Source: Thermotoga sp.
Lineage (GTDB): Bacteria > Thermotogota > Thermotogae > Thermotogales > Thermotogaceae
Assembly: GCF_021162145.1 (NCBI RefSeq)
Contig: NZ_JAGGZH010000044.1
Span: 1-40,458, forward strand
DNA length: 40,458 bases
Direction: 5' to 3'
The notes beneath the pieces are model-generated. The model ran no database searches. It was not told the origin of the DNA and saw only the letters and a list, made by a program, of their open reading frames with translations. Each line of letters starts with the position of its first letter. Within the stretch, counting starts at the first letter, position 1. This document shows, one piece after another, positions 38,157 to 40,458 of the stretch. The translations under genes and the position numbers were made by a program.

Positions 38157-39167
38157 ATGGAAGCTATGAAGGGACTTCTCATACTGTTTGTTCTGATTAG
38201 TCACGCAGTGGTGAGTGTCTACAGGGATCTGACGTTCCTTCTTCCAGTTCTTCGGTTTGTGAGTCCGTGTGTTTTTGTTTTTGTGTACCTCTTTGGCTAT
38301 TCTCAGGGGCGAATGAGAAAATCACCTTTGAAGATCATCAGGAAGTCTTTCTTTTTCTTTTTGTTTTACCTTTTCTGGTCGTCCGTTTCTTTTTTTCTTT
38401 ACTCACTTCTGGACGGAAGATATTCCAAAGTGTGGGTAACAAAACAGGTGTTCAGTGTGGATGGCACTCTGCTTTCGAAGTATCTGATCACAATATTTTC
38501 CTTCACCGGATCATGGCAGTATTATTTTGTCTTTGTTTTCATCATGCTGATGGTGATCTCTGTTTTCATAAAGGATCCAAGAAAAATTTTTCCTTTCTCA
38601 CTGGTGGGAGCCATCCTTAGCTCTTCCTTTGTGAGTGTCTGGTTTTTGACAAAAGACGAGCTTTTACCACCTGTCGAGGGAGCGTTCATCACTTATTTCA
38701 ATCCAGTCCACTGGCTCTTTCCTTTCCTCCTGGGTCACAAGGATGTTCTTGAGAGAAGAGAGCGCTCTTTGAAAAAGCACTCCCTAGCTGTTTACCTGGC
38801 TCTTTTTGGTCTCGGCTCACTGGAGTACTGGAACGCGTATCGAAAATTCCGCAGTCTCATTGGCATCGATCAGTTCTCCCTCCCCGGTGTGCTGCTTGGT
38901 GTGTACAGCGTGGAGGTGTTTTCGTCTGTTTCAAAGAAACTGAGTTTCCCTCTCTTGAAGAGGATGGGAAGGTATTCTTTTCTTCTTTTCATGATACACA
39001 TGCCCTTTCAGTGGATGTTTTACGTATTTCTGGACACACTCATTGACCTTCCAGAATGGTGCTGGGTTTTGATCATGATAGCTTTTTCGGTAGCGTTCAT
39101 GGAGTGTCTTTTGAGATTTGCAAAACATCTTCCAAAACCGTTGAGGAAAGTGGTGATCGGTTTGTGA
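38157..39167 (+). CDS. Multi-pass membrane protein, acyltransferase-3-like
   Basis: This 336-residue protein has about ten hydrophobic segments, starting MKGLLILFVLISHAV and including SWQYYFVFVFIMLMVISVFI and PFQWMFYVFLDT. The N-terminal Leu/Ile-rich helix ending in a His and the placement of Arg/Lys clusters resemble acyltransferase 3 (OafA/YrhL-like) membrane enzymes, but I see no certain catalytic motif. ATG 38157 follows AGAGGTGGGG. An ATG at 38166 is also possible. It precedes tRNA-Asn and is divergent from the AI-2E-family gene. Confidence 0.65.
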   Translation: MEAMKGLLILFVLISHAVVSVYRDLTFLLPVLRFVSPCVFVFVYLFGYSQGRMRKSPLKIIRKSFFFFLFYLFWSSVSFFLYSLLDGRYSKVWVTKQVFSVDGTLLSKYLITIFSFTGSWQYYFVFVFIMLMVISVFIKDPRKIFPFSLVGAILSSSFVSVWFLTKDELLPPVEGAFITYFNPVHWLFPFLLGHKDVLERRERSLKKHSLAVYLALFGLGSLEYWNAYRKFRSLIGIDQFSLPGVLLGVYSVEVFSSVSKKLSFPLLKRMGRYSFLLFMIHMPFQWMFYVFLDTLIDLPEWCWVLIMIAFSVAFMECLLRFAKHLPKPLRKVVIGL

Positions 39168-39215: not shown

Positions 39216-39291
39216 TCCGGCGTAGCTCAATCGGTAGAGCGCCTGGCTGTTAACCAGGTGGTTGCAGGTTCGAGTCCTGCCGCCGGAGCCA
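39216..39291 (+). tRNA. tRNA-Asn (anticodon GTT)
   Basis: A complete cloverleaf: acceptor TCCGGCG with CGCCGGA, D arm GCTC...GAGC, anticodon stem CCTGG/CCAGG with loop CTGTTAA (GTT at 39249-39251), T arm GCAGG-TTCGAGT-CCTGC, discriminator G and encoded CCA at 39289-39291. All stems pair perfectly. It stands alone, with its own promoter and a downstream terminator, and marks the edge of an AT-rich region. Confidence 0.97.
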
Positions 39292-39331
39292 GTGAGAGAA
39301 ATCACTTAGGGGTTACGGTACAATGTAAAAG

Positions 39332-39357
39332 GTGGAGCCAGAAGGCTCCGCTTTTTT
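39332..39357 (+). terminator. Terminator downstream of tRNA-Asn
   Basis: An 8-bp stem (GTGGAGCC 39332-39339 with GGCTCCGC 39344-39351, one wobble pair), an AGAA loop and T6 make a clear Rho-independent terminator about 40 bp after the tRNA. Confidence 0.85.
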
Positions 39358-39359
39358 GT

Positions 39360-40022
39360 TTTAACTTTTTGTGACTCGACAAAATACTTAATGCGAAAAC
39401 GAAATTTCAACAATCCATGAACCTGTTATATACTTCAAAAGCAAATTTTGATCGCCCTTCCTCACTCCTTTCCAGCTACTCCGATCTCTTCTAACATATT
39501 TATTGCATTGAATATTACTAAAATGCTATAATTGAATCGTAGTCACTTGTTTAATCAGTGAGAAGAAGAAATATTGTTGGAATTGCACTTTTTCTTGGTG
39601 GTGTTAACGAGATCCCCAAGACTACAGGTGAAAGCAAAATATTCAACCATTTCTTAATCTCACCTATTTTGAATGTAATTTCAGTTTTTTGATCTGCAAG
39701 TAATAATCACCCTGATTTGTTTTGGTTGACATTTGATATATTTGATATATAGGCATTTTTATTCGTTAAAACCTGTCATTTGCTTGTTGTTGCGATCAAA
39801 ATAAAAACTTTCAATACAGCAGTGAATCTTTGCAAACGGGCGTTATTCCTGTAATAGTTCATTGCGCAGATTGTTGTTATTGTTGCTTTCTTTACGTTAA
39901 AAGAGCGAGCGATTAATGATTAGCACTGTGGGACAATAATATGTAGGCTGTAAAATTTTGTATCCCGTAAGTAACCGTAGTGGAATGAAAATGATGTGAA
40001 TCTTCAAAAGGGGCGAGTTGAA
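39360..40022. other. AT-rich non-coding region between tRNA-Asn and cas6-like gene
   Basis: About 660 bp, clearly richer in A and T than the rest of the window, with no intact gene. It holds a decayed ORF (39558-39923), promoter-like pieces (TATAAT at 39527-39532, TTGACA at 39726-39731) and a tandem TTTGATATA repeat (about 39732-39750). No CRISPR repeats are present as perfect repeats. It is probably part of an acquired or scarred island. Confidence 0.6.
39558..39923 (+). pseudogene. Decayed membrane-protein-like ORF
   Basis: One reading frame from GTG 39558 gives VRRRNIVGIALFLGGVNEIP followed by more residues to TGA 39690. The same frame then carries stops at about 39750 and 39840, yet ends in a hydrophobic segment FIAQIVVIVAFFTLKERAIND and TAG 39921. 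Two protein-like hydrophobic ends in the same frame suggest one membrane-protein gene damaged by point mutations. No ribosome site is visible and no family is recognised. Confidence 0.35.
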
Positions 40023-40458
40023 ATGAGATTTCTTTGTGAGTTTGAAACTAAAGATCTGCCTGTATCATACCGTATGATTTTTGTCAGCATGATAAAAGAT
40101 GTTTTGAAGAGGGAAGATGGAAGTCTCTACGAAGAATTATTCACTTATGGAGATGGTAAAAAAAACAAAGCAACGAAGAGTTATACATTCGCTGTATTGC
40201 TGAGAAATCCAAAAATAGATGGTGAAAGGATACGGTTTGAAGGTAACGTAAGATGGTTTTTTAGCTCTCCTGATCCAAAAATTCTGATCAATGTATACAA
40301 TGGTTTGAAAAGGTTAAATACCTTCAGCTACAGAGAAGAAAAACTAGACTTGAAGAAAATCACCCTCCTTCCTCAAAAAGTTATAGGTGATGAAATAGTG
40401 GTTTTTAAGACATTATCCCCAATACACATAAAGGATAAATTCAGGAAAACCTTTAAGC
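40023..40458 (+). CDS. cas6: CRISPR-associated endoribonuclease Cas6-like protein (5' part)
   Basis: ATG 40023, after AAGGGGCGAG, opens a frame that stays open to the window end (145 codons). The N-terminus RFLCEFETKDLPVSYRMIFV, the region LYEELFTYGDGKKNK-ATKSYTFAVLL and the end VVFKTLSPIHIKDKFRKTF have the Cas6 pattern: a first ferredoxin-like fold starting from the N-terminal strand, and the f.T.SPi.i strand. Cas6 cuts CRISPR precursor RNA within repeats. The Gly-rich C-terminal loop lies outside the window, so this call rests on the N-terminal half. Composition is AT-rich compared with the main block. Confidence 0.7.
   Translation, partial: MRFLCEFETKDLPVSYRMIFVSMIKDVLKREDGSLYEELFTYGDGKKNKATKSYTFAVLLRNPKIDGERIRFEGNVRWFFSSPDPKILINVYNGLKRLNTFSYREEKLDLKKITLLPQKVIGDEIVVFKTLSPIHIKDKFRKTFK

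Follow-up and report, generated by a model that had tools for sequence, protein, structure and literature searches.

The DNA analyzed here (the window, 40,458 nucleotides) is one entire contig, G000:C44, in a draft assembly of 152 contigs from a Thermotoga genome, and position 40458 is thus a contig end. Approaching that end, an acyltransferase gene and a tRNA-Asn gene are followed by a terminator-like hairpin, a stretch of AT-rich noncoding DNA, and the first part of a cas6 gene (Table 1).

Table 1. Features at the right end of the window
Feature	Position	Strand	Remarks
Acyltransferase gene (PF01757)	38157..39167	+	Conserved left flank; Pfam match at 6.8e-17
tRNA-Asn (GTT)	39216..39291	+	Island edge; ARAGORN and Rfam tRNA, 76 bits
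Terminator-like hairpin, 13 pairs, with T-run	39327..39356	+	Also read directly in the sequence
AT-rich noncoding left end of island	39357..40022		GC 0.33-0.35
cas6, 5' part, 145 codons, cut by contig end	40023..40457	+	TIGR01877; PADLOC Cas6b

AT-rich DNA and a truncated cas6 gene beyond tRNA-Asn

The GC content was 0.467 in the window up to tRNA-Asn and fell to 0.346 between positions 39292 and 40022. Reference tiles of 700 bp starting before position 38500 had a mean GC of 0.467, a standard deviation of 0.022, and a minimum of 0.417, and the eight lowest-GC tiles of that size in the window all lay within 39301-40350. The longest run lacking an open reading frame (ORF) of 60 codons was also found here (39375-39995, 621 bp; runner-up, 264 bp). 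A preliminary description of this DNA had placed tRNA-Asn at the edge of an AT-rich, coding-poor stretch, and the tRNA call, the hairpin, the drop in GC, and the ORF-free run all bear this out. The AT-rich left end of the island had no DNA match among the relatives' loci compared.

The truncated last ORF clears the NCBIfam cas6 cut-off, with 59.5 bits against 58.65 for its N-terminal part only, and it matches the PADLOC Cas6b family at 4.7e-41. Its ATG start yields an N terminus that matches the MR(F/I/L) of its relatives, and the glycine-rich loop typical of the RAMP C terminus would fall beyond the break at codon 145. Judged by these matches, the ORF is a real Cas6; it had been called Cas6-like before, and the counterproposal that it is not a Cas6 fails. 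No Cas6 above about 35% identity to the window protein was found in 45 genomes of the order, and a scan of a wider genome-contig collection returned no close relatives. Plasmid records gave distant Firmicutes Cas6s only (29 to 34% identical), and there was no match by sequence to solved structures. Given the low GC and the absence from the order of a Cas6 closer than about 35% identity, the island appears to have been acquired from outside the genus Thermotoga.

A CRISPR array beside galK and its relation to the window Cas6

The galK gene of the same genome sits on a small contig, C40, which starts with a CRISPR array and continues with a flavodoxin gene and then galK. The array has six identical 29-nt repeats, GTTCCATATTAACTATGTGGGATGTAAAG, each of which folds into a 9-pair hairpin, and spacers of 36 to 39 nt. 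The repeat was absent from all other genomes of the genus examined, and no match was obtained in a degenerate scan of the wider genome-contig collection or in an exact scan of IMG/VR, where three spacer cores likewise had no match. Within 2 to 3 mismatches, one copy each was found in two genomes of another family in the order. Repeats close to that of C40 occur singly or in short degenerate arrays, lacking adjoining cas genes, at L094 13093-13320 (G028:C11) and L095 8413-8441 (G033:C5).

In relatives, tRNA-Asn leads to the galactose genes, and with galK on C40 this order places tRNA-Asn with cas6 at one edge of the locus and the array with galK at the opposite edge. The array itself is present; what ties it to C44 is synteny and not shared sequence: C44 and C40 have no end sequence in common, and no 16-nt match ties the end of C44 to any other contig. 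The suggestion that a strain-specific CRISPR locus begins in the window is supported by this array, found beside galK in the same genome with a repeat absent elsewhere in the genus. Of the further cas genes and repeats foreseen past position 40458, the array turned up on C40, but the assembly lacks the genes that would stand between cas6 and the array.

The same genome has a type I-B operon on another contig, C48, running from the end of cas7 through cas5, cas3, cas4, cas1, and cas2 to an array with the repeat GTTTTTATCGTCCTAAGAGGAATATGAAC; cas6, cas8b, and the start of cas7 are missing from it. Its genes are orthologous to the operons of two other Thermotoga species, G002 and G003 (69 to 92% identity), and its repeat differs by one base from that of Thermotoga RQ7 locus 4 (PMC5637354). 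Between G002 and G003 the cas6 genes share 70% identity; with the window cas6, each shares only 30 to 35%.

A Cas6 tree was built from a small set of Thermotogales N termini (145 columns of a fast-evolving protein, deeper branches weak), and in it the window protein groups with the G033 protein (support, 0.88) and next with that of G010, whereas the Cas6s of C48-type operons, together with those of G040 and G044, make up a clade of their own (0.998). The repeats follow a similar division. Aligned with the repeats of G010, GTTTGATCTGAACTATGTGGGATGTGAAC, and G033, GTTATTAATTATCCATAGTGGAATGTAAAG, the C40 repeat scored 17 and 13, respectively (0 of 5000 shuffles as good), versus 2 with the C48 repeat. 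Some clade-A repeats, too, gave better-than-chance scores with it (for G044, 8), which makes the contrast between repeat families a matter of degree. The operons of G010 and G033 read cas6-cas8b-cas7-cas5-cas3-cas4-cas1-cas2-array on one strand, with genes named by order, size, and, for some members, family scores, and the window cas6 and the C40 array point in the same direction, as in those operons. The repeat kind at C40 is thus, as far as the alignments go, in agreement with the Cas6 clade of the window (G010 and G033), and together they give the same pairing of cas6 with the C40 array that synteny gives.

Searches of the assembly found no second cas8b, cas7, cas5, cas3, or cas1 beyond the C48 set, so a full operon at tRNA-Asn would need several unassembled kilobases. 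Either such a stretch is missing from the assembly, or cas6 and an array make up the whole locus. Cas3-like matches on C91, C78, and C69 were far under the Cas3 cut-off and were judged from ORF appearance to be other helicases. RAMP genes were not found in the window's genome. CRISPR repeats lie at the end of C7 (L044 11749-11843, G000:C7) and at the start of C48 (L064 154-443, G000:C48), and since they share family and orientation, the two contigs may join via one array, in which case the C48 operon would be inverted relative to that of G002. The second cas6 of this genome, which is complete, lies on C7 and is followed by a gene for a CARF-domain (Csx1/Csm6-like) protein (L044 9635-11571), despite the lack of type III RAMP genes; this pair may be what is left of a type III locus of the sort found in G002 and G003.

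Contents of the tRNA-Asn site across Thermotoga

The site was compared in the window's genome and six other Thermotoga species. In all six, the acyltransferase gene adjoins tRNA-Asn, with 68 to 71% DNA identity to that of the window, and the pair is followed by a variable segment and then by the oppositely oriented galactose operon. The segment consists of a diguanylate cyclase gene only in G002, G004, and G005, with a frame change splitting the G002 copy; this gene was not found at this place in the window's genome. G003 has an IS605 OrfB/TnpB gene at the site and retains the last 116 codons of the cyclase. In G001, which is probably T. maritima (MSB8), tRNA-Asn is immediately followed, in AT-rich DNA, by a gene for a PifA-type KAP NTPase of 735 amino acids (L041 3355-5562), and the cyclase is reduced to a piece matching its first 50 codons. 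According to the preliminary description, this neighborhood leads to galactose genes in T. maritima. That holds insofar as the galactose operon follows in the six other species, but in G001 the KAP/PifA-like gene intervenes.

The segment in G006 holds a type III-F effector set (cas10f, cas5f, cas11f, and cas7f) with a copy of tRNA-Asn on either side (L042 2570-8840, G006:C1). The two tRNA copies show 98% identity over 82 bp, the duplicated unit being the entire 76-nt gene and 5 bp upstream. In the first of them the acceptor end is damaged, with CCGTTGCCA in place of CCGGAGCCA. Beyond the effector set come Mrr and GmrSD-type restriction genes, then the cyclase, and then galK. The flavodoxin gene of G006 is 69% identical in DNA to that of C40, so the islands of the two genomes have a gene in common. 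The tRNA duplication makes recombination at this tRNA likely, at least in G006. The window's genome yielded neither a second tRNA-Asn nor a tRNA fragment on C40 beside galK; the duplicated tRNA 3' end that had been looked to as a mark of integration was therefore missing there and was seen at the same tRNA in the sister species G006. No integrase was recognized among the scanned ORFs of the G006 island or in the assembled part of the window's island.

What follows tRNA-Asn thus varies across the genus, and the objection that the same order might be present in all strains falls away. Three of the seven species have three different defense systems at one tRNA-Asn site. The flanks of this tRNA-linked site are conserved in Thermotoga and its contents change, and what lies between tRNA-Asn and the galactose operon looks like a turnover site where defense systems come and go. 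We suggest, tentatively and as a view that is open to considerable doubt, that this is a genus-wide site of defense exchange, at which unrelated systems (type I-B and type III-F CRISPR, a PifA-like NTPase, and restriction enzymes) would replace one another with no integrase involved, through homologous recombination and duplication of the entire tRNA gene.

The nature of the locus and known systems

Since the window Cas6 groups with the Cas6s that go with C40-like repeats and not with those of the C48 type, a separate, species-specific CRISPR locus, probably of type I-B, probably starts at about 39.3 kb. We hold it to be very probable that an acquired CRISPR-Cas locus, most likely of type I-B, extends at this turnover site from cas6 to the array by the flavodoxin gene and galK on C40. 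It would have been acquired horizontally between tRNA-Asn and the galactose operon, with the cas6 at 40023 as its first gene, and by analogy with G010 and G033 its most likely layout would be their gene order, all on one strand, with the array end represented by C40. Guide RNAs would be released by Cas6 cleavage of the array transcript within its hairpin repeats, and the processed array would give crRNAs with an 8-nt tag, ATGTAAAG. Because the assembly has none of the middle cas genes, type I-B membership is something we infer by analogy, and the presence and order of those genes, the facing of C44 and C40, and activity of the locus are likewise put forward as predictions.

A smaller locus, of cas6 and the array alone, with interference supplied in trans by the C48 operon, would suit the lack of a second cas8b, cas7, cas5, cas3, or cas1 in a genome rated 99% complete. 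We consider it unlikely: Cas6s of this kind head a full operon in G010, in G033, and in the other Thermotogales loci seen, and AT-rich or repetitive stretches of such a size are often missing from draft assemblies. The sharp break in composition just past the tRNA, with the contig end soon after, might also be taken as a sign of an assembly artifact or contamination, with the AT-rich end misjoined to Thermotoga sequence. However, C40 independently has foreign CRISPR sequence at the other side of the same site, AT-rich defense inserts are present at the same tRNA in sister species, and assembly contamination is given as 0.04%, so this is very improbable.

The window cas6 might instead be the missing first gene of the C48 operon, moved to tRNA-Asn by a chromosomal rearrangement, with the C40 array unrelated. 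C48 lacks cas6, cas8b, and the start of cas7, and joining it to C44 as one operon needs the smallest gap, about 2.3 kb. A moved gene is also favored by published work that attributes chromosomal recombination in Thermotoga to CRISPR loci (PMC5637354, with reference to Mongodin 2005 and DeBoy 2006). Yet the C48 genes are 69 to 92% identical to those of G002 and G003, whose cas6 genes are so distant from the window's; the C48 repeat is of the kind that goes with the other Cas6 clade; and the array beside galK is left without explanation. On Cas6 clade, repeat family, and synteny, we place the link to C48 second and regard it as quite unlikely.

With a separate acquired locus as the preferred reading, what was a truncated contig end can be placed as a CRISPR locus whose repeat is new to Thermotoga, and one tRNA-Asn site is seen to hold different antivirus systems in different species. 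The site is a defined place to seek new defense genes in hyperthermophiles, and it offers a way to test how defense genes move without an obvious integrase.

Among known systems, the locus resembles the Thermotogales type I-B operons of the Cst2/Cas5t ("Tneap") kind, such as the cas6-cas2 cassette of Thermotoga RQ7 (PMC5637354) and loci L067, L066, L098, and L065, in having cas6 first, an expected downstream array on the same strand, and hairpin repeats of 29 to 30 nt; in Cas6 and repeat it is nearest to the operons of G010 and G033. Unlike the other Thermotogales type I-B loci, it lies at tRNA-Asn by the galactose operon, its Cas6 is only 30 to 35% identical to the nearest in the order, no other genome of the genus examined had its repeat, and its middle genes were not seen. 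Type III-F, whose prototype is Tlet_0097-0100 of Thermotoga lettingae TMO (PMC8036902), occupies the same tRNA-Asn site in G006, but the window's genome lacks RAMP genes, and its system is a different one. Defense islands and hotspots associated with tRNA genes, for example in E. coli (PMC10121019), likewise have conserved flanks that include a tRNA gene and exchanged, antivirus-rich contents, whereas here no integrase was recognized, the window's genome has no tRNA-end duplicate, and G006 duplicates the entire tRNA gene. The window locus belongs to known kinds of system; its repeat is new to the genus, and the turnover of the site is the point of interest.
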